Shown: positions 24-24,600 of the stretch, one piece after another
Numbering within the stretch: position 1 is the first letter of the stretch
Layout: each line of letters begins with the position of its first letter
NCBI GenBank assembly: GCA_030272155.1
Contig: CP126202.1
Span: 2,418,001 to 2,482,000 of the forward strand
DNA: 64,000 nt
DNA from: Tetradesmus obliquus
Lineage: Eukaryota; Chlorophyta; Chlorophyceae; Sphaeropleales; Scenedesmaceae
Reading direction: 5' to 3'
The notes under the pieces: generated by a model
The model's input: only the letters and a program-made list of their open reading frames with translations
Told to the model about the DNA's origin: nothing
Databases searched by the model: none
Translations under genes and position numbers: made by a program

Positions 24-3000
24 TGCGAAGTGACTACAAACACAGGCCTAGAAGTGCTAGCCGCCCCACCACTCCCAGCAGGCGGAGCATCAGCAACATC
101 CCTCGCAGCTTATCTAGCAGCAACCTGCTGGATGGCCCAACTGCTGCCCACAATGGCAGTAGCAGCAGACCCACCACCCCTCGGCAGCAGCTGCAGCCAC
201 AGCTTAGTCCTCGAGCAGCCAGCATGCTGTCGACTGGCAACCCTGTGCTGGCAGCACCAGCAGCACATTGCTTTGCAGACTACTACCAGGCACGCAAGGC
301 AGGCAGCCTGACGGAGGCATTCTACAGCTGCAGCAGCCCCAGCAGCAGGCAGCAGCCTGTGCATGTGCCACCAGTGCAAGTGCGCAAGTCCCAAGACGCG
401 CCAAGCTACTACAAGGCAGAGGGCAACTCGCCAACAGGCCTGAAGCATGTGCTGTCGAAGCTGCAGCCAGTCCGCCCAGCACCTGTTGTGCTGCACCAGT
501 CACGCTGCGCTTCTGCAGATGCGTCCTGCACTGAGCGCCTACGCACTTGCAGCTGGGATGCCTCCATCAGCCAGCGCACAGCAGCCAACGTCAGCATTGC
601 ACAGAAGCGGCAGCAGGAGCAAAGCCTGCTGCTGCACGGGCTTGCAGGAAACAGTGCTCTCCTACAACAACGGCAACAGCAGCAGCAGCAGCAGCAATTT
701 GTGTACCAGCGCCAGCCCAGCCCTGTTGCAAGCATGGGGCTTCTGGCTCCCATTGCAAGGCCCTGGAGTGGTGCCCAGTCACCAGTGCAGCAGGACCGCC
801 CAGTTAGCCCACAGAACATGCTGGTGCTGCGCACATTGGCGCTGCACACGCCGCACAACATTGTACCTCCTGTTGTGCTGGAACACACAGCAGAGCCTCC
901 TTCCTGCAGGCAGGGGTGCTCAGGAGCTCGGTCCCCTTCTTCCACGCGGCTGATGAGCCCGCAGCTGCAGCATCTGGTGTGCTGCTGCTGCAGCCAACAA
1001 CACAGCCTGCAGCAGCACCAGAGCTGCTGCCACCGCTGCCCCAGCTGCTGTCAATGCAGCAGCACAGCAGGCCAGAAGCAGCAGCAGTGTGAGCCAGCAA
1101 CAGAGGCGAGTGCAGCATCAAGTGACACATGCAGCTGCCCCTGCATCAAGGCGTACAAGAAGGGCCAGAGAGATGCCCGCAAGGCAGCAACACAGCCAGG
1201 CGTGGCGATACCTGCTCCGACAGGCGGCAGCAGAGCACAGGCAGCGCAAGAGTTCAGGGCATCAGAGCTGGCATCTGGATGTGCTGACGCCATGGAGGCT
1301 CTGCAGCTCACAGATGCCTCGATGGCTGCTGCTTCAGCACACGCCCAGCATGACGCCAATGCAGCAGCGGCAGCAACAGCAGCAGCGGCCACCACCATGG
1401 ACGGCATGGCAGCCACTGCAGCAGAGGCTGAAAATGAGCAAGAGGCTCCTGCAGAAGACGGGCTGATGCGTGTGCTGCAGCAGCTGGCAGCATCGCAGGA
1501 GGAGCTGCTGCAGCAGGGGCCGCCTTTTGATGCTGATCAGATGGCAGAGCTGGCAGACCAACTGGCACAAGTGAGCATGGTCGAATGCGCTAGTGCCCTT
1601 GCACATATATGTAGTGCAGTGTAGGCAAGCATGTTGGTAAACTGAGGGCATGGGAGGGGGCAAGGGTGATAGAGATGTGTCCTGCAGAACAGCAGCACCA
1701 TGGTATGCAAAGCAGGCGGCTGTTTATAAGGCACGCCGCATGCGTCTGCCTCCTTCATTGGTTCACCCAGCGGCATGCTTGCATGTTGACACCGTTGTTT
1801 ACTTGCCTTGCCTGCTGCAGTGTGTGGGGCTGTCTGAGCCTCAGCATGAACATCTGCTGCGGCATGTGCTGGAGCAGCAGCAAGACATGCTGTCCATTCA
1901 GCAGCGTGCGCTGCTGGACTCCACGTCTGGCGCTGGAGGACAGCAGCAGGCACCACAGCTGCAGCTGAGGCCGCTGCAGCAGCGGCAGCAGCAGCAGCAG
2001 CAGGGCTGGGGGGACTTGGATGCTCTAGAACTTCCCGATGAGTTTGGTGGTGCAGCAGCAGCGGCAGAAGCAGCTGGTTTCCATGAAGCTCGTGACAGGA
2101 CAGGCTCCTGGGTGGCACAGCACAACAGTCAGCAGCAGCACCAACAGCAGCAGCTGCAGGAGTTGCTCTATGATGACCAGGGTGATAGCGCAGCTGAGGA
2201 CTATCCAGCCATGGTTGCTGGTGCTGATCCAGGTGGATCATATGGGGGTTCTGGATACGATGGCGGTTCACGGCAGGATTTTGATGGGCCCCTCGCTGCC
2301 AGGCTGCCGGCAGGGGCCATTGTCAGCAGCAGCCCTGCGGCAGTGATGCAGACAAAAGGCAGCAGCGCTCCAAGCACTGCTGTGTTCAAGTGGATGGGTG
2401 ACGACGGCATGACAGAGGAGGACAGGGCAGCCGTTGCTGCTGCAGCAGCATATGCGGCGGTGCCAGATCCTGTGAAGCCACCGGCTCAGCGCAGCGCAGC
2501 ATATGGCCATGCCAGTTACAGCCGAAGCAGCAGCGCTGCAGCTGGCAGGCACGGTGCGTTGGCAAGTCATGGTCAGGACCCTGGGGAGAACCTTCAGGGG
2601 CCTGGTGCTGCACCACAGACAATGCAAGAGCTAGCAGGAGCGCTGGCTGCCCCTGGCTACCCAGAGCAGCAGCAAAGGTTGACTGCTGGTCAACCAGGTG
2701 GCCGCAGGAGCAGGAAGCTACTGCTGCCAGGCATTGAAGAGATAGAATCAGTGCTGGCAGCGTACAGTGCAGCAGGAGTGTTCCCAGGAGGTGATGCAGG
2801 GGAGACACAGACCAGGGAGCCGCTGCTGCACTTCATGGTGAGGCCACAGGATGCACCAGGGGATGGTGCTGTGCTACACAGGGCCCCTCCGCAGGTGACT
2901 GCAGTAGCACAGGTGTGTGGAGGGAGCAATACCTTCTTCACTGCTTCCCGTTTGTTTTGTTCCTTTTGCGTGCACGTGCTGTGTGCTTCTGAATGTGATT

Positions 3001-3515
3001 GCAAGGAGCTGTAATGCATGAGAATGAACAAAGCTTTCATGCAGGTGCCGTGGCAGCGCCACACCTAATGCACTGATGCATGAAGTGCTCAATGGGGCCA
3101 ATACTGTTGGCTGTGCTCGCATTACATTGTGTGCCCTATCTGCTGCTGCTGCTGCTGCTGTTCTGCGTTTGCAGTTGGTGCAGGGCCAGCAAGCTCTGAG
3201 CAAGCTCTCGTCAGCTGCTAGCCGGCAGTCAGCAAGGGCTGGTGGCACATCTACTGCGGATGCAAACAGCCCCAATGCACACATGGCCAGCAGCCGTTCC
3301 ATCGCTGACTCGGCATGGTCGGTTGTTGCAGCAGGCCATGCAGCAGCGGCAGCAGGTGCTGTACCTGATGCATATGTAGGCAGCCTGACCGCAGCTGGGA
3401 CCAGCAACTATGAGGCACCAGCAAGCCCTTTGGCAGCTGCAACTGCTAGCAAAGGTAGCAGCAGGGTTTACTCAAGGCAGCAGAGCTTAGGGCTTCCCAG
3501 CCCAGCTCAAACATC

Positions 3516-3573
<58 letters not shown>

Positions 3574-6500
3574 GTGTTTGCCCGACAGCCATCCTCATCA
3601 AGCAAAGTACGAGGAACTGCTGCCACCCTGGAGCAACACATGCAGCAGGTGGAGCAGCAAGCTGATGCTGCCTGTGCAGCCGCAGCAGCGACAGCAGCAG
3701 CGGCAGCTGGCTTGGCTGGAGGGCCTCGGGCGCTTGCCAGCAGCCGTGCCAGCAGCATCAGGTCTGTGCAGCATTCTGGCAGCGAGAAGGACCACACCAT
3801 AGAGAGCCAGCTCAGCAGGCTGAGCAACATCTGGGGCAACTTGGGCAGCACACCTGGCAGTGCTGCCAGCACACCAAGGCCCTCCTCGCGCCTGGCGAGT
3901 GCAGCAGGTGGTGCTGCTTCTAGCCCTGGTGCAGGAGGCGCTGCGGGGCCGCAGGTCAGCACTTCTGGGGCCGGCTTTGGAGAGCAGCACAGCAGGTCGT
4001 TTGTGGCGGCTGGTAGCCAGAGTGGTGCGCAGCAACAGCAGCATGCTGCTGCTTGCGATGGTTTGAGCAGTCCGGGGCTGCGCTCACCACGCCTGTCCGT
4101 CAGGTTTGTGGACGAGCAGCACATGGAGGCTGCAGCAGCAGCTGTTAGTGTGGCTTCCGACGCAGCAGCTGCGGGCAGCCAGCAGCAGCAACAGCAGCAG
4201 GTACGACAAGCTCAAGTGCAGCATCAAGATAACCAGATGGTGCATTCACGTGCTGCAGAAATGCTACACAGCCGAAGGTCATCCTTTGCGCGTGCAGGCA
4301 GCTTTCAAGCACCTGATAGCGACCCGTCAAGTGCTGCTACTAGTGCCAGGCCTTCTATGAGCCAGGTGTCAGCGCCAGCCTCTGACTCACAGCGGAAGCG
4401 GCTCAGCATCAGTGAGCAGCTAGCGGCACTGCAACAAGCAGCAGGGAGCTCAAGGCGGAGCAGAGCAGCATCAACTAGTCAGAGCAGCATCAGCGCACAC
4501 TCAGCTGGCACCGCTGCAGTGCCAGGTGCAGCATCGCCTGCTGCTTTTGCAGGGCTGCCTCAGGCTAGAACCTCTGCTAGCCTGGCAGAAAGGCTTTCAG
4601 CTGCAGGTGGCAGCACAGCAGGGAGTGGGGCAAGCACACCAGCAGGAGCTAGGCTTTCAAATAGCGCAAGGATGCTTCAGGCAATGACTGCAGGGCTCAG
4701 CGCAGTTGGATCAACCAGCCGGGCATCACGTGCGAGTGAAGCCATCCGTGTGCATCATGGTACTGAGGCAGCTCAGCAGCAGCAGCAGCAGCAGCAGCAG
4801 CACAAGTCTGCGCTGGACCTGGAGCAGCTGGCAAGCCCCAAGGCATCTCTGCCTGGAAGCACACACAGCAGCATCTCCAACTTGCCATTTGCGCTACTCC
4901 AGCAGCAGCAGCAGCAGCAGCCTGGTCGAAGCACCCTTCAAGCTAGCAGCAGCTTGGCGGTGAGGCCGTCAGCAGCAGCTGTGCCTGCATCCACCACTGC
5001 AGCATCAGCGCCAGTATCCTCGTCAGGTGCATCAAGTGACTGGAAGCAGCAGCAGCTGGTGATGCAACATCAGCTGGCGGCACAGCAGCAGCAGCTGCGC
5101 CAGCTGCAGTCGCTCAGCAATAGCGTGGCGTCATCACCGAGGGCATCTGTCGCTGTCAGTCGCTCACCAACAGTTGGCAGGAGCAGTGAAGTGCCAGTTG
5201 GAGCAGGGGCAGGAACAGTGCTAGCAGCACCTGCTGCAGCTGCGGGCACCGTTACGGTGGCGGCTGCATCTCAAGCAAGCAGTCCACGGGCCAGAACACA
5301 GAGCACCAGACAGAGCATAAGTCAGGCAGCAGCTGTAGTCCTGTCAACAGTGCCAGCAGCTGTGGAGCTGCCTGCAGGTCTACTGGTTGAGAGTGACAGC
5401 GAGGATGGTCTGGGCAGCGACAGCAGCGCAGGCCGGCAGGATGGGCAGGCGCTGCTGCGGGGTGTGCTGCTGGAGCGGCTGCTGCAGCGCAGGAAGGGCA
5501 GGCTGATGCAGAAGGCGCTCAGCACCTGGTGGAGGTACACAGTAGGTGAGGTTCAGCCTGGCCCCGTGATCAGCGTGCCATACATATTGTACGCGGCTTG
5601 ACGTAGTAGCTCACAAGTAAAGCGCGGTGCAGCTAACGCATGTTATGGTTGTTGCAACACTCTGCCTTTTTTGTTTATCGCCGCTGGTGCCTTCAACCGA
5701 GCAACAAGCACACTCACACACCCTGCATTGTGCATGCCACCTGGTTACAGCTGTCCGGACCCTGACAGAGGGTGGCGTGTCCACTCCAGAGAGGAGCAGA
5801 CGCAGCAGCAGCAGCCAGCAGCAACCAGAGCAGGGGGTGAATGTGGAGTTCAGTGACTTGCAGGGCTTACGGCAGGGCCTTGCAGCAGCCATCACAGGCA
5901 GGAGCAGCAGCAGAGCGATGACAGCAGCTCGAGGCATGTGCAGTGACGATGTCGAGATTTTTGTGTCAGGGCAGGTGCGGCTGCAGTGCTCGCCTGTGCG
6001 CCAGCGGCAGCAGCTGTCAGATGCTGCGCAGTGCAATGCTGAGGAGGCGGCTGACGAGCAGGTGGCTAAAGCCTTGGCAGTGGCCGCTAGCCGCTCCCCT
6101 GACAGGTGCCGTGCTGCTGGCAGAGGCAAGGCTGCAGCAGCTGCTATGCAGCAGGCTGCTGATGAGAAGGCAGCAGCAGCGGCTGCAGCAGTGCTTGCTG
6201 CTCAGACCAAGCCGCTGAAGGCTGCACTGCAGGAGGTGCACGGCATGATTGCTGCGATGGAGAACATGTGCCATAGCTCGGGCCATGGCGGCAGCGGCAG
6301 CAGCAACTGCGACGGGGCAGGGCCAGCGCAGGTGCTGACATACAAGTCATCTTCGGCAGCTACAGCTGCTGCTGCTGCTGCAGCCAAGGCAGCTAGGGCA
6401 GGGAGTCCTTCCAGCTGCTGGCAGCGGCAGAGCTCTCCAGTGCCACGCAGCCACCAGCATCTGCCGCGGCAGCAGCAGCAGCGCATGAGGTCGCCGGACC

Positions 6501-6880
6501 GCTACAGGCTGCGTGGGCAGCTCAAGCATGTGCAGGAGCAGCTGGTGAAGCTGGAGGTGAAGATGAACCAGGCTGCTGCCATGCAGGAGGGCCCCTGCTT
6601 CTGCAGCACTGCAGCAGACAGCATGGCGGCAAGGAGCAGCTCTCCCACCAGGGGCAGCCCAGGGGGAAAGAGTATGGCCGGCAGTGGTGTGCTGCATAGC
6701 CCTGACTGCAGGGCTGGCAGTGGAGCAATTTCTGCAGCAGGGGGTGGTTGCAAGGGGGGTTGTGTGCGGAGGGTAGCTGGCAAGCGGCAGGTGCTGGTGG
6801 GGCGCATGCAGGATGAGATTGGGCTGCTGCAGCGGGAGCTGGCGGAGCTGCGTGAGATGATGCCTGGGGCGTACGCGTGA
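24..6880 (+). CDS. Large Ser/Gln/Ala-rich coiled-coil protein, 3' part only
   Basis: Not recognised. I read four exons at 24-1570, 1821-2912, 3175-5545 and 5751-6880, joined by GT-AG introns with consistent phases and ending in TGA. Positions 1-23 are the tail of an upstream intron, so the start is missing. About 2,046 residues are visible. The protein is low complexity: SP and TP motifs such as RPTTP and SPRAAS suggest a phosphorylated scaffold, and there are polyQ runs (one of 19) and polyA runs. The more ordered parts are C-terminal: a basic/aromatic stretch RRKGRLMQKALSTWWRY near 5490-5535, and two amphipathic heptad-like segments (RGQLKHVQEQLVKLEVKMN near 6512-6570 and GRMQDEIGLLQRELAELREM near 6800-6860) that look like coiled coil. 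A cytoskeletal or centrosomal role is only a guess. The exon structure is well supported; function is unknown. Confidence 0.7.
3517..3570 (+). repeat. (CAG)18 microsatellite encoding polyQ
   Basis: Eighteen uninterrupted CAG codons followed by one CAA lie inside exon 3 of the first gene, giving a run of 19 glutamines. Codon purity suggests the tract is length-variable. Confidence 0.95.
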
Positions 6881-7556: not shown

Positions 7557-9319
7557 ATGGCTGCGAAGTCCATCTTAAACGAACTGTATCAGCGACTGAG
7601 GACAGCTGCCCCCGTCTACAAGACACAAGCAGACGAACACAGCGATGGGTTTGTATGCTCCCTGACTCTGCCAGCTGTGGAGTCCGAATGGGAAGCCCTG
7701 TTAGCAGACCGGACCTTCCAGGGCAGTGGCAGCAGCAAGAAGGTGTGAAGCTGGTTCAAGCAGTAGATGCAGTGGATCTTCGTGCTGGTTTTCCACGTGT
7801 ATTGATTGTCAGTGCCTATCAGAGGATGCAGTCGCAATCCTGCGTGGTCCAGGGCGCGCAGGCAAGGATCCAGCACTGCTTGCAGCACCGCAGCAGCAGC
7901 AACAACAGAGCAACTGCCAAGCCCGCCTCATTCTATGCACTATCATAGAGACCCCATCTAATACTTCTCCATGCTGCAAATCTGCAGGAGGCTGAGCATG
8001 CAGCAGCAAATGCAGCGGTGGAATGGCTGACAGCAGAGAAGGTGCTGCGGCCAGACCAGCCTTCTGCATCACACAGCAGCAGGGGCACTGCAGTGACAGC
8101 AGCAGCAACAGCAGGAGGGCCATCACCCACTGTATCTTCAGCAACCTCTGGCGTTTCACTGCCTGGTGTTGGGTCAAAGCGCTCGAAAAGCAGCGTTGAC
8201 TGCGACGATGAGTCCACAGGTGTGCGCCACGTTCCGTAATGCATGTTTGCTGAGAGCATGTTGTATTTCATAAGGAGCTGTGCGCTTCCTGCAAGAGCCA
8301 GGATGCGTATACACCGACATATCAATGCTGCAGCTGCCTTCTGTGAGCCGCAGTGTGTCAGCTGCCTTGACTCTACTACAACAGCAGCTCATGCTTGCAG
8401 GAATGCCATGTGCTGTACTTGCTAGCGTCGCACACACAGCAGTGCAGCACTGCATGGGCTACTGCAGTGCCTAGCAGCCCTCTGTTGCACTCCTTTGATC
8501 TGTCTGTCGCTTTTCGCAGAGAGCCTGGAGCTGCGTATTTTGGAGGCACTTGCTGGTGTGTACCCGCGCACTCTCAATGGCGCTCAGCTGGCCAAGCTGT
8601 GTGGCCACTTCAAGCTGAAAAGCAAGGTGCGAGAATAATGTCACGAACACACGGGCTGCCTTGCTTTGTCGTACTGGTACGCTGCTGCTCATGCTGCAAG
8701 GCGTGCTTGTTGCTCAGTACTTGACATGAGCATGCCCAGCTTGCTGGCAGCTGTTGCAGCAGGTTCAGCAGCGCCAGGTGTCCTGCCGAGCGCTGGCTAT
8801 GCCAAATTTGCAGCTTGCACAGCCAGTTGCAACTAACCTCCACAGCTACAGCTACAGTGCTAGTGCTCCTGCAAGCGTACCCTAACCTGGGGAGTTCCGC
8901 TGTAACTGGTCGTGCCGCTGCTGTCGCTGGGAACTGCTGAATCGAAACCGCAGGTCAACCACCTGCTGTATATGAAGCTGCGTGCCTCAGGCTTGGTTGA
9001 AATGCTTGACACGCACCCGCCTGCATGGAGGGTGGCAGCCCCGGCCATCACAGCGGCAGCAGCAGCAGCCGCTGAGGCGCTGGCTGCAGCAGCTGAGGCA
9101 GCAGCACTGCCAGGAGCTGAAGCCGTCACAGCAGCAGCTGGTGCTGTAGGGGCAGCAGCTAAGCCTAGTGCTGGTCATGTGAGGGGTGCTGCTAGAAGTG
9201 CTGCTGTGCTTTTGAATCCTGATGTGGCGGCTGCCAGCCTGATAGCAGGCGCAGCAGCAGCAGCAGCAGCTGGTGAGGATGCTGGTGAGGTAACATCAGC
9301 AATGGCAGGTAGGTCTGCA

Positions 9320-9353
<34 letters not shown>

Positions 9354-10221
9354 TCAGTCATGGTTGCGTCAACAGCATCCTTTCTGCAGCAGATCTGGGG
9401 GTTGCAGGTACTATTGGTGGCGCAGTTTGTGCAGCTGCTGCTGCTGCTGCCGGCACTCCTGCTGTTGGTACTGGCTCCAACACTGGCAAGGACGGTCAAG
9501 GGCGTCAGCTGCTACCTGGGGCAGCAGCAGCAGCAGGAGTTGTCGCTCCTGCTGGCAGCGGCAGCCCTGCACCTCAAAGCAGGCTGGCTAGGCCTACAGG
9601 CAGGGCCACAGACCAGCAGCAGCTGGTGGCAGCTCTGCTGCAGCAGCACTTGAAGCAGCAGCAGCAGCAGCAGCAGCAGCAGGCGCGTGCGTCCACAGGC
9701 GAGCCAGCAAGGAGAGCAGCCGCACCAACTGCAGCGGCAGCAGCAGCTGCAGCGGGCAATGCAGGGGGCCTTGGCGCCACTCCGAGCTGCAGCTACGGCC
9801 ACAGCTTACAGCAGAGCCACAGCCACAGCTACAGCCAGCAGAGCCTAAATCAGCAGCAGCAGCAGCAGCGCAGCCAGTCCTGTGGGCGCAGCACGACTGC
9901 TGCTACTGCTGCTGCTGCACGCCAGCAGCAGCAAGCAGCAGCAGCAGTTCCTTCGCGTGCTGCTTCGCTGGCAGCTGCTGGGGTGCGGCCTTTGGCTGGC
10001 AGTGACAATGATACAGACGACGATGACATCTCGCCGGCTGTGCTGGCTGCAGCAAGCGAGGCAGCAGCGCTCGAGCCTGCACCCTTCTCAGCACGCCCTA
10101 GCAGCAGCAGCTTGAGCAGAGGTGGCAGCCAGCAGTTGCACAATGTGAGCAGTAGTAGTAACACCGCTGCCAGGGCATTGTTTCAGCAGCAGCAGCAGCC
10201 GCTGCAGCAGCAGCAGCCGCT

Positions 10222-10260
<39 letters not shown>

Positions 10261-11259
10261 TGATCAGTTTGGCTTCATGCTGCCGCACCTCGATCTGCTG
10301 GCTGCAATGCAGCTGAACGAGCAGCCAGCAGTGCAGCAGTTGCAGCAGCAGCAGGTGCCGCCGGCAGGACTGTTGCAACAGCAGCTGCCGCCGCGGCCAC
10401 AGCAGGCAGCAGTTGCTGTCGCTGGCAATGCTGCGCAGGAGCTGTTGTGTGCGTTGCCCAGGGTCCGTTCTAGCACTGGCAAGCCTCAGTTAGAGGCAGG
10501 TGTGAAGCGGAAGTACCCTGCTTTCTCATCCAGCACGTCTTGGGAGCAGGGTCAGAACACTGCAGCAGCAGGAGCTGACGTTATAGATGCTGCAGCAGCA
10601 GCTGCTGCTGGTGTGGGAGCAAATGACATGGTGGATGCCGCTGCAGCCATGGATGAAGGGCAGCAAACGCCAGCTGTGGAGCAGCTGCAACTCAATGCAG
10701 AGTTTCCCATGTTTGGGCAGCAGCAACAGCAAGGCCAGACACAGCAACAGCAGGGTGTTGCGATGCCAATCCATGCAGCTGAGCAGCAGCAGCAGCAGCT
10801 CAGCAGGCAGTTGGAGTCGCAGCCCGACCATCAGCAGCCACAACGGCGCCGCCGCAGATCTGGTGACGGCCCAACAGCAGTAACGGCAGCAGCGGGGGTG
10901 CGGGGACGTCTGCGGCAAACAGCTGCAGCAGATAGGCACGGCGCGCGCAGCGATGCAAGCCCTGCACTTTCAGATGCCGCATCGTCAGACGGCGGCAGCT
11001 GCGAAGTGTCAGACGACATGCAGAGCTCAGCACCAGCCGCCGGCCCTGCAGCAGCAGCCGCTGCTGCTGCTGTTGTGATGGGTGAATCAGCTGATGTGGG
11101 GGCAGGAGCAGCAGCAGACCTTGCAGCAGCGCTGCTGCACTTATCTGCTGGCTCCAGCACACCCCAGCAGCAGGCAGCAGGCGCGTTTGTGCAGCAGCAC
11201 GCGGCAGGCAGGCTGGCGCAGCAGCTCAATGCGCAGCCACAGCCACCGCCGCCGGCTCC

Positions 11260-11297
<38 letters not shown>

Positions 11298-12770
11298 GCC
11301 TGTTTGGCTTTCCAGCAGATGAGCAGCAGCAGCAGCAGCAGCAGCGCCAGCAGAATGCCTCAGCTGCTTGGCAGCCTTGGGGCTGGGAGGGCTCACCTGT
11401 TGTCAACCGCACACCAGGAGGGCCTATCTTGCAAGCCCCAACTGCCACACCTGCAGCTGGCAGCAACCCCTGGCAGTGGCAGTGGCAAGGGCAGCAGTGG
11501 GCTACTCAGGTCCTGGAGCAGCAGCAGCAGCAGCAGCAGCAGCCGCAAAGCTTGTGGGTTGCTGCTGCAGCTGATCACAGCAGGCAGTGGCAGCCATTGC
11601 TGCCACAGCAGCAGCAGCAGCAGCTGTGGGGCAATGATGCTGTCACACCTCCGCCTGCTGCACTGCCAGCAGACAGTGAAGGAAATGGCAGCTGCTTGGG
11701 CTGGCCTGTTGGCTCTGGTGCAAATGTCCAGGGGCAGCAGCAGCAGCCGCAGCAGAATGCACAGAGTGTGTGGCGTGCGGCTGCTGCGGCAGGCCTGAGC
11801 CAGCGGCAGCAGCAGCAGCAGCCTCACAGCCCAGTACCCTCTAGAGGGCTGCGGCAGCACAGCCCTAGTCCCTCAGGCCTGTCACTTGGTGCTTCTTCAG
11901 CTGTTGTGGGCGGGCCTGGCTCCGGTGCTGCTGCCGCTGCTGCTGGCTGGATGTCTCCCGGTCTGCCGCCCTCTAGTGCTGCAGCCAGCAGGATCTTGCG
12001 CGGTGCAAGCCCTGCAGCTTTTGGTGCTGCTGCAGCTCTGCCGACAGCAGCGCAGAGCAGCGTGCTTGCAACGCACGAGGTAGTGAGCGGTGTGAGGACA
12101 GCAGCAGCTGACCATCGCCAGCAGCAGCCAGTTGCAGACCTGCAGCAGTCAGAGGAGCAAGCGCTGCAGCTGCTGTCACGGCTTGCATTGCCTGGATCAG
12201 GCACAGCAGCAGCAGCAGCAGCAGCAGCAGCTGGTGGCTCAGATGGCACCTTGCAGCCACAAGGAAACTTAGGAATGTTAGGGTTGTCACAACCACCAGC
12301 AACGTTGGGCAATGCCGCTGCTGCTGCTTCTGCTGCTAGCAAAAGTATTGAAAGCAATGACTCCCTGTCAGTGGCAGTTGCGGCTGCTGCTGCAGCAGCC
12401 AAGGCGGCAGCTGCGATGGCAGCAGCTGCGAGCTTTGCTCGGCCAGGCCACACAGCGGCTGCTGCTGCAGCAGCAGCAGTGCCAGCTGCTAGCAGGAGCA
12501 GTGCAGGAGACATGGAGCAATCCGCGCCGTCCCAAGAGCAGCAGGCAGTGCCAGCAGCTGCACCTGGCACTGCTGCTGCAGCTGTGGAATTGGTTCACCA
12601 GGGCCAGCAGCAGCCTAGCAGCTGCACTGTGGAGGCGGATAGCGCGCTCACCAGTCAGCAAGCCGCTGCTGCTGCTGCTGATGTTGCGGCATCTGGTGCA
12701 GCTGCCGCTGGTGCTGCCGCTGGCGATGCTGCAGCTGCTGTGCCTGCCGGTGATGCTGCAGCAGCTGGCC

Positions 12771-12807
<37 letters not shown>

Positions 12808-12928
12808 GCCTGCCGAGCTGGCTCAGGAGTATGAGCGGCGCATGGGTGCTGTGCGTGAGCTGGTGCTGCAGCTCAACCAGGCGCTGCAGGGGCTGAACAG
12901 CATACGGGAGCAGGTGGAGGGCGGTTAG
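7557..12928 (+). CDS. dsRBD plus Z-alpha-like winged-helix protein with long polyQ/polyA tail
   Basis: Four exons with consistent phases: 7557-7742, 7988-8219, 8520-8626 and 8954-12928 (TAG), predicting 1,499 residues. Residues about 4-77 form a double-stranded RNA-binding domain: SILNELYQRL helix, YKT, a strand region, then GSGSSKKEAEHAAANAA across the first intron. Residues about 140-203 form a winged helix with the Z-alpha signature: K173, N177, Y181, P197, P198 and W200. Residues about 205-1460 are almost entirely Q, A and S runs. The last 40 residues, including YERRMGAVRELVLQLNQAL, are a probable helix. In animals and poxviruses these two domains occur in ADAR1 and E3 with Z-alpha first; here the order is reversed and there is no deaminase. 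The start is the ATG just before the dsRBD; an upstream coding exon is not excluded. The likely role is binding of dsRNA or Z-form nucleic acid. Confidence 0.85.
7566..8029 (+). other. Double-stranded RNA-binding domain (split by intron 1)
   Basis: The exon 1 part (7566-7742) gives the first helix and beta strands and ends in GSGSSKK. The exon 2 part (7988-8029) continues EAEHAAANAAVEWL. The join at K62/E63 recreates the classic third dsRBD region, with the two lysines that grip the RNA phosphate backbone and the alanine-rich second helix. The split of the domain itself confirms the intron. Confidence 0.9.
8520..9037 (+). other. Z-alpha-type winged helix (split by intron 3)
   Basis: Exon 3 encodes ESLELRILEALAG and LNGAQLAKLCGHFKLKSK (helices 1 and 2). 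Exon 4 continues with recognition helix VNHLLYMKLRASG and wing THPPAWRVA. Compared from memory with human ADAR1 Z-alpha (K169, N173, Y177, P192, P193, W195), the equivalents are K173, N177, Y181, P197, P198 and W200, with one extra residue in the wing. The asparagine-tyrosine spacing and the PPxW wing motif are the features that distinguish Z-alpha from generic winged helices. An ordinary winged helix is the main alternative. Confidence 0.75.
9654..11540 (+). repeat. Cluster of CAG/GCA trinucleotide runs
   Basis: Near-pure CAG runs occur near 9654-9681, 10219-10259, 11262-11293, 11325-11344 and 11517-11540, with CAG- and GCA-rich sequence between them. They encode the polyQ and polyA blocks of the dsRBD/Z-alpha protein tail. 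Confidence 0.9.
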
Positions 12929-14062: not shown

Positions 14063-17000
14063 ATGGGCAGAGCTGCTCCAGTGCTGCTTGCAGCAGTGGG
14101 CTGGCTCTGCCTACTGCTGGCTGTGCATGCTTCCAACCAGAAAGGGGCCAGCATCAGCGTCAGGGCCAGGTGGCAGGGCACGCCCTATCTGCTGGAGGCA
14201 GCAGAGTTCCTGGTGGGTTGGGGCGCTGCAGCAGTTGCAGCTGGATCAGCTGGATCAACTGCTTTCGGAGCTGCTTGTGTCCTGCTCGCCTTTTGTGCTA
14301 GATGTTGGGAAGCTAAGTGATCCCCCATCCTGATTATGCAAAAGCATTAGATGCAACACCCAACATAAGCATGCCTTGGTGTTGTGTTCAACAGGCGGAC
14401 GAATCGCAGCAGCTGTACTGGCAGTTCCTGGACAGCTTACAGCTCAGCGACAGCAGCAGCGGCACGGAGTGCTGGCACAGCATTGTGGACCAGGCATCCA
14501 AGCTGTGCTACCCACAAGTAGCAAAGGTGAGCAGATCAGCAGCAGCATTGTTGTTGCACGCGCTGCAGTGCTGTTTGATATTAGCGTGGCCCTGTGGTGT
14601 GGATCCTGCAATAACCCAGACCAACTTTCAAACGCCCAGCGTTGTTGTGGCATGCCAGTGGCTGCACAGCATGGCCGGGCACTGGGTGCTGTTCGATGTC
14701 TCTTATGGGTTTGTGCTGCGGTATATGCCCAGCCATTGCACTAGCACTGCAGAACTGTGCGCACAGGGGTGCTATTCTGGATGCTGGCCTGTGCATGCTG
14801 TTGGTGCTGTGCTACGAGCCTGCTGCTGCAGCTGCTTCACCTGTCTGTTGCTGCTGCTGCTGCTGCTACTGCTGCTGCAGATCCTGCCTGTGGTGCTGGG
14901 TGTGAGGCAGTACTCGGCTCGCCTGGAGATGTTCAGGCAGCTCACCAAGCAGCTGCACCCAGCTGCAGAGGTGAGGGTGTGCACAGCGGCAGCAGCAGCA
15001 GCAACAGCAGCATCGGCACTACGGCATACGAGCGAGCTGCAGCTGCTGCTGCTGCTGCATCCCTTGATGAACATGACTTAAGTGTGTTCTTGCAGGCATG
15101 CTTTCCTGCAACCCGCCAGTCATGCTGATCAAGCACGACTTGCAGTTGACTGTTCATCAAGGGATGCAGCAGCAGCTGCAGCTCGCTAGACACAGCAGCG
15201 GCAGGTGCACGCAACGCCTGCAGCACCGGCAACACGTACAGCGAGACCCGCTGCTACAGTGCTGTTGTTGAGCTGCCTTCCTGCCTGCTGCTGCTGCTGC
15301 TGCTGTTGCTTGCAGGAGCACTGCTGCTTTGTGGATGTGCACGGCAGTACCGTTACTGAGCCAGCGCAGCTGCCAGCAGCCATCCAGCAGGCGCGTGCAG
15401 CAGCAGGCAACAGCAGCAGCAGCAGCGCCGCGGGGCAGCTGCAGGAGGCAGACCATGTGTACAACCCGGACCAGCAGGATGCGCCAGGTGGGTTGGTGGC
15501 TTGGCAGCACCTGCAGGTGCAGCTCTGTGCGTGCCACCTTTTGTCTAATTGTTGTGGAAGCAGCTGCTGGCAACTGCAGTTCAGGGTAGCACACATGTGT
15601 TGTGCATCATTGTACATCAAACGTAAACGACGAACATGTCTGGTGCGTGCTAGCTGTCATGATGCTGACAGAGTGCTGACAGCAATGCCAGCGCAGCCGC
15701 AGATCACGTAAGCGCTGCATGCTGCAGTGCGGCTTGTTCACAAACCGTGTTGCTGCGCAACTGTAGACGTTGTTCTTGCATGTGCCCAACAGCTGCATGT
15801 GCTGCGTTGTCCTGCAGGTGCTGTTGCGGCAGTGCTGCATGCGTCTCCAGGCACAGACTGCTGGGCCGGCTTGCATGCTGCACTGAAGCAGGCAGTGAAG
15901 GATGCTGCTGCAGATGCTCCACTAGTGTATGCGCACCGGCCGCTGCTGCCAGCTGCATGCAAGGTAAACAACAGCAGCATGTTAGCATGTTAGCACGAGC
16001 AGAATGCAGCTGTAAATGCAGAAACATTGACCGCTTGAGTGTTTGGATGCGCTGCCTTCCTTGCGTCCCTCTGCATGTCCTGCTGGCACCATGTGAGCGC
16101 TACGTGCTGCTTGTTTTTGTATGGGTGAACGGTTCGGCTGCGTACGCTTGCACTGCCCTTTCTGCCGCTGCACTACCACACACATCCTGCACGTGAGCCT
16201 GCAATTGTTTTATGTGCTGATATGCTGCCACACGCATTGCAGGCGGTGCATGCATGCGCTGCCCTAGGCACAGAGGAGCAGCTAGTGCTCTCTTGTGGGC
16301 TAACTGCGCAATGGTGGTCGTGCTGCTGTGTTTTCTTGTGGCTTGCAGGCGGTGCATGCCTGTGCTTCCTTTAAACACAGAGGAGCAGCTAGTGCTCTGT
16401 TGTGAGCTGACTGTGCAATGGTGGTCGTGCTGCTGTGCTTTTTTGTGGCTTGCAGGCGGTGCATGCCTGTGCTTCCTTAGGCACAGAGGAGCAGCTAGTG
16501 CTCTGTTGTGAGCTGACTGTGCAATGGTGGTCGTGCTGCTGTGCTTTTTTGCGGCTTGCAGGCGGTGCATGCCTGTGCTTCCTTAGGCACAGAGGAGCAG
16601 CTAGTGCTCTGTTGTGAGCTGACTGCACAACGTTGACCGTGCTGCTGTACTTTTTTGTGGCATGCAGGCGGTGCATGCATGTGCTTCCTTGGGCACCGAA
16701 GAGCAGCTAGTGCTCCCCGGCTATGGCGTGGAAGCCGTCCTCAAAAACATGGAATACTCAGCCATGGACGAAAAGAGCAAGGCCGATGCCGCTGCAGCCG
16801 CCGCCAAGAAGAAGCTTGCAGGAAATGTGGATGACGCGCTTGCAGGACTTGATGCTTCGCAACTGGGGGAGGTCAAAGGCTTCAAGTTTGATGTGCTGGT
16901 GAAGCGGAAGCCGCAGCTGGTGCAGGAGTTGATGACGTTTAGGGACGTGCTGATGTCAAGTGACGAGGAGCAGAGCATCAAGGTGAGTGGAAGGATGGAG

Positions 17001-20000: not shown

Positions 20001-21657
20001 TCTTTGATTGTGCTGCTGATGCCGCCGCTGTCTTATTGTTCCTGCCTATTTATGCTGCTGCTGCTGCCGCCGTCTTATTGTTCCTGCTTGATTATGCTGC
20101 TGCTGCTGCTGCCGCTGTCTTATTGTTCCTGCTTGATTATGATGCTGCTGCTGCCGCTGTCTCATTGTTTCTGCTGCCTCTGTACATTCATCTAGACGAT
20201 GTCCAACTCCGAGAAGTTCACGCGCGCCATGCTGACCATTCGATCAGCTTTCGGCACGCCAGCTGCTTGGGAGTTCTGGGCTGGCATGGGCCGCGAGCAG
20301 ATGGAGAAAGCCTTGGCTTCTGGCGATGCTAAGAAGGTTGAGACTACGCTGCAGTCGATGTTTGTGGGCCAGTGGAGTGCTGCGGCGGGTCAGGCGCGCA
20401 CCAACAAAGCCAAGGTGGCTGCAAAGAAGGACAGCTACAAGGTGCGGGGATGGTATGTAGTGTTTTTTTGTGTGTGCGGATGCGCATGCGTATGCCTATG
20501 CAGAAAGTATGCGTGCCTGCATAGATGTACGCATGTTTGGGTGCGGGCGCATGCGTATGTGTGGAGTTGCGCCCCCGCGTTCAGGTGTGTTCGCTTGTGT
20601 TTGCGCACGTGTGTGCATGTGCTTGCGGGTATGCACGCGCGTGAGCGTATGGACTCGTGTTTGCGCATCTTGCATCTGCGCGTGTGTGCATGCACACTTG
20701 TGTGCGCATATGTGCATGCATGTGCGCCGTTTGCATGTGCGCGTGTGCATGCGCGGGTGTGTGTGCACGTATGCCCGTGCATCTGTGTGCTTGTGTGTGC
20801 TCGTGGGTGCTTGCGCCTTTCACTTGTGCTTGTGCATGTGTGCGTGTGTGTATATGTGCACGTGCTTGTGCAAGCGTGACCACGTGTGCGCACGTACATG
20901 CATGTATCAGCGAGTGTCTGTGCATCTGCGTATGCGGGTGAACACGCGAGTGCGGCACTGCCGCGCATGTGTGTATGCGTGCATGTGCTTATGTGGATGG
21001 TATGTTGCGTGTGCATGCGCATGCGCGTGCGCATATGCTTACTTGTGCGCGCATATGCATGCATGTGCGGATGTGCTTGCGTGCGCGCGCAGCAACTGTG
21101 TGCGCGTGTGTGCGCCTGTACTGCTTGCCCGCATGTGTGTGGTGTGCGTGCGCATGTGCGTGCGTGTACGTGCGTGGGCATGTGTGTGTGCTTGCGTGAG
21201 CGAGTGGCAAACCGTGTGCGATTGTGTGCGCTTGTGTGCGCGCGCTGCTTGCGCTCAAGACATGCGTGTGCGCGCAAGTGTGGGCGTGCGTGTATGCCTG
21301 CCTGCGCGCGCGTGTGCATCTCACTTCCTCGGCGCGGCGTCCGTGCGCGCGTGTGCGCGCATGCAGTTTCCCGCACACGTGGCATGGCCGCGCGCATGTG
21401 CGTGCGTGTGTGCCTGTACTTGCCTGCACGCGCGGATGTGCGTGCAAGTGCTCGAGTGCTTGCATGTGCGCTGCATCGGTGCGTGCTTGGGTGCGCGCGT
21501 GTGTGTACTTGCGCGCATACGGTGCAAATGTGCATGCTTGAGCATGTGCAGTGTGCATGCAGCACAGTGCAAGTGTGCCCTCTGCAGAGTTGCGAGAGCG
21601 CGTGTACTTGCGTGCTTGTGTGCATGTGTGCATGTGCGCGTCACAGCCGGCTTGACC

Positions 21658-21691
<34 letters not shown>

Positions 21692-24600
21692 ACTGCCTAC
21701 AACTTTCCCCAGGCGTGGGAGGAGCTCAAATCCGGCAGTGGCTATGCTTCAGAGGCCGGCATGCAGCTGGCCGACATATCCGGCTACCTGCTGAGCAAGG
21801 TGGGTGGGAACTGTGCGTATGGATTCAAAACAGGGTAGGTGGCAAGGCAATGATCTCTGCACGCCTGCGCTGGACGCATGCTACCATATACCTGAGCAAA
21901 AAGTATAGTATGAGCACACGAGGACCGGGTTTTTCCTGGCGAACCTGCCGTGGCCATCTTGGTGGCTCAATGGCAATGCTGCCGGCCTGATACCTGACCA
22001 AGAAAACCTGGTGTAACGCCTGCAATACCAAATGCTGTCTCCGCGCTTGCATAGTTGCGTTCATACCTGTATGTACGGTTTGAAGTCGCGTTGTGCAGGG
22101 CCTGTCGCACCTGCCCTGGCCGGCTTGGTGGATCAACGGCATGCTGGCAACCTTCCCTGATAACACCTGAGGGCGGCGCAGCAAAAGCCACCTCCAAAAA
22201 GGCAAATAAAACCGAACCAAGTGCGTCGGGCGCCAAGCGTGCGATACTCACTCTTGCATATCATATGCAAATGTGAGTCACACTTTGTCCCGCCTGTCAA
22301 CTGGCGCTGTGCAGGGCTTGGCGCACCTGCCGAAGCCGTCTTGGCGGCTCAACGGCATGCTGGCAGCCATCCCTGAGGGCAGCGGGGCTGCAGCAACTAT
22401 TTCTCAAAATGCTCAAACCCGACCGAAAACACCCGGCGCAACGCCTGCATTGCCAAATGATGTCTCCGCGCTTGTATAGTTGCGTGTTTACCTGTCTTAC
22501 GGTTCGACATCACACCGTGCAGGGCTTGGCGCATCTGCCGAAGCCGTCTTGGTGGCTCAACGGCATGCTGGCAGCCATCCCTGAAGGCGGCGGGGCTGCT
22601 GTGGACCAGGAGCTGAGTTATGCGGTGATGGGCGAGATGCAGCTGCTGCAGGAGCACATCTACTTCGGGCGCATCGACGGCGAGGAGCCGGTGAGTATTG
22701 GACTTGTGAAGTGGGTTCAAACATCAAGTTTGGGGACAGGAATGAGAGCTGGGGTGTGCTGGGCATGCAGCGCTTGGTATTGCATGCGCATTGCAGCGTC
22801 TGCACACCTGTTTTGCACAAGTCAGCCGTCAGCAGGAGCGCCGTCAGTGGTTGGGAGGGGGAGGGGGGATGTATCAGTGATGGGCGAGATGCAGCTGCTG
22901 CAGGAGCACATCTACTTCGGGCGCATCGACGGCGAGGAGCCGGTGAGTATTGGACTTGTGAAGTGGGTTCAAACATCAAGTTTGGGGACAGGAATGAGAG
23001 CTGGGGTGTGCTGGGCATGCAGCGCTTGGTATTGCATGCGCATTGCAGCGTCTGCACACCTGTTTTGCACAAGTCAGCCGTCAGCAGGAGCGCCGTCAGT
23101 GGTTGGGAGGGGGAGGGGGGATGTATCAGTGATGGGCGAGATGCAGCTGCTGCAGGAGCACATCTACTTTGGGCGCATCGACGGCGAGGAGCCGGTGAGG
23201 CGGGAGACCCAAGAAGTGTATTTGCGATTTATACTTTGAACAGACTTGCAGGGTAGCGCAACAATGCTACATGCACTGCAGAACAAACAGTGCCTGGTGT
23301 GCAACAAGAGCAGTAGCAGACAGAGCTAGTGCGGCGAAATCCTCCTGACAATGTGCGGATGTGCGGCTGCTGCTGCGCCTGCAGGTGATTGAGTCTCTGA
23401 TGGAGCTGCTGGTGTCGGTGCGTCACTGGAACCCGCGCGTGCTGGGCATGGACGATGACGGCGAGGCAAAGAAGGTGAGGCTTGAATCGAGTTTAAGGTT
23501 GTGCACAAGGCTTGTGCTGGTGTGTGCGTGTGCACGTGCGCGCTCGTGTGTCAGCGTGCGTGCATTGGAGCATGCATACGGCTGTCGACTTGTGCTGTGC
23601 GTTGAGCTTTGACATATTCGCCAGGAGACGGTGCCCTTCACCCAACCCTTCGTGCGCCTGCGACATAATACCGAATGCATGTTGAGTGCGGCTGCTCCTG
23701 CATGTGTGTTGTTTCTTGATTGCAGGCTGTGCTGAGCACCTCCCTCAGCCACCCAGGTGCCAAAGCCCTCACCTACTTCTCATGCATGTGCATGCCCGAT
23801 GTCTCCTGCCATGTTACCACAACCAAACATGCACACTTGTGACGTGCGGCTGCTCCTGCCTGTATGTTGTCTCGCTTGCAGACTGTGCTGAGCAGCGGCC
23901 TTAGCCACCCAGGTGCCAAAGCCCTCACGCATGTGCTCCAATCAACAGGTGCACGCGAGTTGAAAACCCAACTTTGCATGTAACGTGCAACTGCGCTTTG
24001 CCTTCCCTTTTGTGCAGACTGTGCTGAGCAGCGCCCTCAGCCACCCAGGTGCCAAAGCTCTCACCTACCTGCACCCCTCCAAGACAGCAGGCAGAGTGAA
24101 GCCCGTCACTCACTGGGTGGCAGTTGATCTATCACAGCAGCGCGGCAGGTCGCTTGCTGTTGCTGCTGTGGGCTTCCTGCAAGATGTGGAGGATGATTTT
24201 GAGCCTGCTGCTTCGCGTGTGGCGCTGCTGCTGGCGCCTGCAAAGGCAGCTACTGCGCTGGATGTGGCGGTTGCAACCGCACTCAAGGTGCGCGCGAGTA
24301 CGTCAACACATCCACATCATGCCATGTGCACATGCCTGGTTTGTTGCTGTGGGCTTAGCAGAGTGCTGTTTGTTGTGGAGCGGCTCTTGTGTTTTTGTAA
24401 GGTCGATTGCATGGGCTTCCTGCAAAATGTGGAGGATGATTTTGAGCCTGCTGCTTCGCGTGTGGCGCTGCTGCTGGCGCCGGCGAAGGCAGCTACTGCG
24501 CTGGATGTGGCGGTTGCAACTGCACGCAAGGTGCGCGCAAGCGCTTTAGCACTTGCACATTTCTTTGTTGGTCTTATGTGCGCATTGGGCTCTGCAGATG

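Follow-up and report, generated by a model that had tools for sequence, protein, structure and literature searches.

What is understood of Z-form RNA recognition comes mostly from innate immunity in animals and from their viruses. ADAR1 p150 is laid out as Z-alpha, Z-beta, double-stranded RNA-binding domains (dsRBDs) and deaminase, and poxvirus E3 carries its Z-alpha before its dsRBD. According to the available portions of two articles, Z-alpha has been reported in chloro- and streptophyta, linked to PC4/p15 in chlorophytes (PMC11293857), and also in a p15-annotated phytoplankton protein and an acetate-CoA-ligase-annotated protein of Symbiodiniaceae (PMC11298590). The occurrence of Z-alpha in a green alga is thus not in itself new, being already published for chlorophytes, and the available portions of both articles make no mention of a dsRBD alongside the algal Z-alpha. 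A further algal protein, DUS16 of the Chlamydomonas microRNA pathway, is described in the accessible part of its source as an RNA-binding motif plus a dsRBD, associated with DCL3 (PMC12026948).

The gene described here, located in a 64-kb stretch of algal DNA that was analysed as a whole (the window), is predicted to encode a dsRBD followed by a Z-alpha-like winged helix. Like ADAR1 p150, it joins a dsRBD to a winged helix of putative Z-alpha type in which N, Y, PP, W and the first K are kept, whereas the order is reversed, a single dsRBD is present, no deaminase was found, a long low-complexity tail follows, and the winged helix differs from that of ADAR1 by two insertions around the recognition helix. 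It shares with poxvirus E3 the lack of an enzyme and the combination of one winged helix with one dsRBD; unlike E3, the algal gene is cellular and much larger, with the reversed order and an additional C-terminal helix. PC4 (p15)-Z-alpha proteins likewise have a Z-alpha-type fold in algae but are set apart, by their descriptions in the available text, through a PC4/p15 partner in place of the dsRBD (PMC11293857, PMC11298590). DUS16 is also an algal dsRBD protein for which the accessible description mentions no enzyme domain, and by that description it differs in having an RNA-binding motif where a winged helix stands here (PMC12026948). A limited literature search, covering parts of the sources, returned no dsRBD-first Z-alpha pairing without an enzyme. 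Judged on the predicted protein, what is new is best called the pairing of a dsRBD with a Z-alpha-like domain in reversed order, with no enzyme, in an alga.

Four exons on the forward strand, the last spanning 8954-12928, are spliced into an open frame of 1,499 aa, and all three introns have GT-AG ends (Table 1). The initial annotation had placed the feature at 7557..9037; the start was retained, whereas the end falls just past the winged helix, such that only the first ~203 residues were covered and coding continues to 12928. Among the matches listed in a protein-database search with aa 1-215 as the query (7,989 candidates scored), we obtained one relative, the 973-aa protein P0001 (E 3e-37; 46% of residues identical across 93% of the query). 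The joining of exons 2, 3 and 4, on which the earlier proposal depended, is borne out by P0001, which runs collinear and uninterrupted over all three junctions (GSGSSKK|EAEHAAAN, DDEST|ESLELR and KLKSK|VNHLLY). Because P0001 aligns through every junction and the dsRBD, the winged helix and the C-terminal helix are common to both proteins, the predicted gene model is real and extends past 9037. When P0001 was searched against the window by tblastn, five segments were matched, all within this gene and in order, including exon 1 (47% over 59 aa), exon 3 (68% over 37 aa) and the start of exon 4 (63% over 30 aa); neither exon 2 nor tail motif 1 was matched in this search, and no second copy of the gene was found in the window. 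The winged helices of the two proteins are 67% identical, with the block CGHFKLKSKVNH and the PPAWR end of the wing identical in both, while the linker and tail diverge. With the P0001 winged helix as the query, the 90 candidates of a protein-database search yielded no protein other than P0001.

Table 1. Predicted features of the dsRBD/winged-helix gene (positions in the window).
Feature	Position	Strand	Content	Evidence
Exon 1	7557..7742	+	Start codon and aa 1-62; dsRBD helix 1 and strands; ends ...GSGSSKK	Splice; dsrm aa 3-76
Intron 1	7743..7987	+	GT..AG, 245 nt, in-frame stops inside	
Exon 2	7988..8219	+	dsRBD C-terminal helix up to about 8029, then variable linker	Splice; Pfam; P0001 alignment
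Intron 2	8220..8519	+	GT..AG, 300 nt	
Exon 3	8520..8626	+	First half of winged helix (...QLAKLCGHFKLKSK), aa 140-175	Splice
Intron 3	8627..8953	+	GT..AG, 327 nt; interrupts winged helix where recognition helix begins	
Exon 4, start	8954..9034	+	Putative recognition helix and wing (VNHLLY...HPPAWRV), aa 176-202; holds N177, Y181, P197, P198, W200	
Exon 4, remainder	9035..12826	+	Long low-complexity tail	Composition; phmmer; tblastn; Pfam
Tail motif 1 (PAVLAAASEAAALEPAPFS)	about 10022-10126	+	Weakly conserved	phmmer vs P0001
Tail motif 2 (SEEQALQLLSRLALP)	12152-12262	+	Weakly conserved	phmmer vs P0001; tblastn E 0.054
C-terminal conserved helix (EYERRMGAVRELVLQLNQALQGLNSIREQVEGG) and stop codon	12827..12928	+		phmmer and tblastn vs P0001; P0001 fold model

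The dsRBD assignment is secure, with Pfam dsrm (PF00035) matching aa 3-76 of the window protein at 36.8 bits (E 5.8e-9) and P0001 at 29.6 bits, both above the cut-off of 23. Known RNA-contact motifs of dsRBDs are the GPxH loop and KKxAK. Inspection of the two sequences revealed no GPxH in loop 2 of either dsRBD, and the KKxAK position reads KKEAE in both, the last K being replaced by E; the domain stands as a dsRBD, but calling it canonical, as had been done, is slightly strong, and dsRNA affinity of the canonical kind is likely from these residues rather than assured. Of solved sequences, only the PKR dsRBD region was listed at an E of 0.01 or below (E 7.6e-4), and NCBIfam RNaseIII gave a weak match to the algal dsRBD.

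For the winged helix (about aa 141-202), z-alpha (PF02295) ranked first among Pfam families when the domain was scanned in isolation, in the window protein (17.1 bits, E 0.0059) as in P0001 (17.4 bits, E 0.0046). Because both scores lie below the curated cut-off of 21 bits, we label the domain Z-alpha-like and not a member of PF02295; the earlier assignment as Z-alpha thus holds as to the best family in both proteins but not as to membership. Residues K173, N177, Y181, P197, P198 and W200 are present at the positions originally given, as seen in the translation and the P0001 alignment. Nine positions are presumably those of Z-alpha contact in ADAR1, and six of these (K169, N173, Y177, P192, P193 and W195 in ADAR1 numbering) are kept in both proteins, while in the window protein K170 is changed to S, R174 to H and T191 to H. 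The available text of one article calls N173 and Y177 of ADAR1 Z-alpha crucial (PMC11298590). Profile alignment by hhalign of the algal pair with four cellular Z-alpha-type sequences (human ADAR1 Z-alpha, human ADAR1 Z-beta, human ZBP1 and mouse ZBP1) gave a probability of 95.6 and a score of 43.1. A phmmer search of the PDB at E up to 10 placed Z-alpha-containing entries in four of its six matches (12.5-13.6 bits, E 0.65-1.4). The structural predictions agree weakly with Z-alpha: Z-alpha has an alpha1-beta1-alpha2-alpha3-beta2-beta3 winged-helix fold, a low-confidence model of the algal domain has the order helix-bridge-helix-helix-bridge, and DNA-bound ADAR1 Z-alpha ranked 3 of 16 in Foldseek (E 4.9). 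The domain is probably a conserved Z-alpha variant in an unusual arrangement, whose function we infer from sequence.

Our main reading, to which we give a probability of roughly 50%, is that the gene encodes a non-enzymatic double-stranded nucleic-acid-binding protein, with the dsRBD acting on A-form dsRNA and the putative Z-alpha-like winged helix on the Z form. The dsRBD would grip A-form dsRNA, and stretches of the same duplex that convert to Z form, or else Z-DNA in the wake of transcription, would be captured by the winged helix. Self-association, dimerisation or partner binding may fall to the C-terminal helix, and the protein would then be an adaptor or binder by which dsRNA is marked, sequestered or passed on, comparable to the binding half of ADAR1 minus its deaminase. 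Whether the two domains jointly read Z-form RNA with no enzyme attached, so that the algal protein would sense dsRNA of viral, transposon or inverted-repeat origin or act as an adaptor in its silencing, is doubtful, and sensing of viral or transposon RNA is speculative. If true, this would extend coupled recognition of dsRNA and Z-RNA beyond animals and their viruses, to a pathway other than interferon, editing and necroptosis. Such a conserved algal protein, in which no editing or kinase domain was found, would offer a simple system for Z-RNA function outside animals, and could help to show whether dsRBD and Z-alpha were paired anciently or on more than one occasion.

The domain could instead be an ordinary winged helix that binds right-handed DNA or a protein ligand, its Z-alpha residues being partly convergent, in a transcription or chromatin factor equipped with a dsRBD as well; we consider this a genuine possibility that falls short of an even chance. 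The sub-threshold z-alpha scores of both proteins and the three changed contact positions favour it. The z-alpha match weakens to E 0.05 in a 225-aa construct and is absent from the Pfam listing (E up to 10) of full-length P0001, and alignment to Z-alphas requires insertions of two residues and one residue flanking the recognition helix. The pair profile returned three PDB matches, none of them Z-alpha, which also favours an ordinary winged helix, and the top two phmmer matches in the PDB were unrelated proteins (15.2 and 14.4 bits) that scored above the Z-alpha entries. An HMM built from the four Z-alpha-type sequences scored the algal domain at only 7.9 bits. Searched with ADAR1 Z-alpha, known non-ADAR1 Z-alphas reach 20-24 bits and an isolated Z-beta chain reaches 20.7 bits; therefore, the algal domain is more distant. 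Single-sequence hhalign scores of the pair are weak and overlap, again in line with an ordinary winged helix: ADAR1 (17.7) and human ZBP1 (25.2) outscored all four other winged helices (RPA32C 10.7, LexA 11.4, BirA 9.6 and ArsR 14.5), mouse ZBP1 (12.5) fell below ArsR, and ADAR1 Z-alpha scored higher with BirA (19.0) than with the algal pair. Fold models were of low confidence (mean pLDDT 42 and 55), none of the PDB fold matches reached E 0.001, and GntR, RecX and MarR chains ranked beside Z-alpha, with RecX above it. By contrast, the residues conserved with P0001 cluster in the putative recognition helix and in the PPAWR wing, and none of 500 column shuffles matched the hhalign score (best 18.2), although the shuffle preserves composition and does not control for other winged helices, for which the Pfam scan is the nearest control. 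That scan of both isolated domains placed no winged-helix family above z-alpha, the runner-up being HTH_69 (E 0.096, P0001 only). A better match to RPC34- or RPA32-type families, which the initial annotation had named as an example of a finding that would count against Z-alpha, was not listed at E up to 10, in a scan limited by HMMER filters that discard most matches above about 0.1.

An unlikely alternative is a role as a dsRNA-binding partner of Dicer in an algal small-RNA pathway, like that of DUS16 or the plant DRBs, with the winged helix serving for docking and the Z form irrelevant. A single dsRBD with no enzyme domain and a conserved C-terminal helix would suit such a role, as would a weak Pfam match of Dicer_dimer to the dsRBD region (E 8.4e-4, below cut-off), the dsRBDs of DRB4 and DRB2 among the non-significant fold matches (E 1.3-3.5) and, in the accessible description, the dsRBD and DCL3 association of DUS16 (PMC12026948). 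Against this, DUS16 is described with an RNA-binding motif and not a winged helix, and Pfam listed no RRM family in the window protein or P0001. A gene-model artefact, in which exons of separate genes were wrongly joined, would undo the Z-alpha signature, which depends on the joining of exons 3 and 4 in a sequence-based model; the intron ends and the collinearity of P0001 at all junctions, and again at the C-terminus, make it very improbable.

The order of dsRBD followed by winged helix was supported by Pfam and the alignment, and the proposed lack of a further enzyme domain agrees with the Pfam scan, which covered aa 1-225, the whole of exon 4 and the complete P0001 and found no other domain. 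Pfam listed no match in exon 4 at E values of 1 or less, and no deaminase, kinase or PC4 domain was found there; an adenosine deaminase domain was likewise not found in P0001 outside the dsRBD. The C-terminal 33 aa match P0001 at 54.5% (phmmer E 6e-6; tblastn E 1e-4), and the corresponding helix of P0001 (919-952) is modelled as a block of pLDDT 77-92. Weak phmmer matches to P0001 were also obtained for tail motifs 1 and 2 (phmmer domains 2 and 4; 5.9 and 2.5 bits). A makes up 26% and Q 15% of residues 204-1499, a region with numerous homopolymer runs, and P0001 has no run of at least five Q or at least six A. Since three neighbouring open frames are A/Q-rich too, these runs look like a genome trait rather than a functional feature.

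Scanning viral contigs with the winged helix gave seven loci, L005-L007 lying on the same three contigs as L001-L003. The L001 match is antisense to a listed ORF and the L004 match is a short stretch within an ORF of other content, and both were set aside as chance. No viral contig was found with the dsRBD plus winged helix as the query. A family search of the alga's own genome (104.66 Mb, 17 contigs), in which the window occupies 2418001-2482000 of its contig, with PF02295 and PF00035 gave no match; the genome was read exon by exon and the known dsRBD was likewise missed, so this search is uninformative. The 7-base repeat CCCTAAA/TTTAGGG was present at all three contig starts inspected, of the 17 contigs, which fits a telomere repeat of the plant/green-algal type.

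Upstream, at 1641-6880, there are three large forward-strand open frames with abundant A, Q and S; a Pfam scan gave no domain for them at an E of 0.01 or less, and they are perhaps one gene. Downstream, the open frames at 14317-15081 and 22277-23239 matched Thioredoxin_12 (E 1.8e-5) and Thioredoxin_14 (E 0.0033), neither match reaching the cut-off; because we take these families to be parts of UDP-glucose:glycoprotein glucosyltransferase (UGGT), a UGGT-like gene may lie there. Long overlapping open frames on both strands at 20435-21990 are rich in C, H, A and T and have a repetitive, non-coding look, and a repeated stretch inside the 22277-23239 frame looks like a local tandem duplication.
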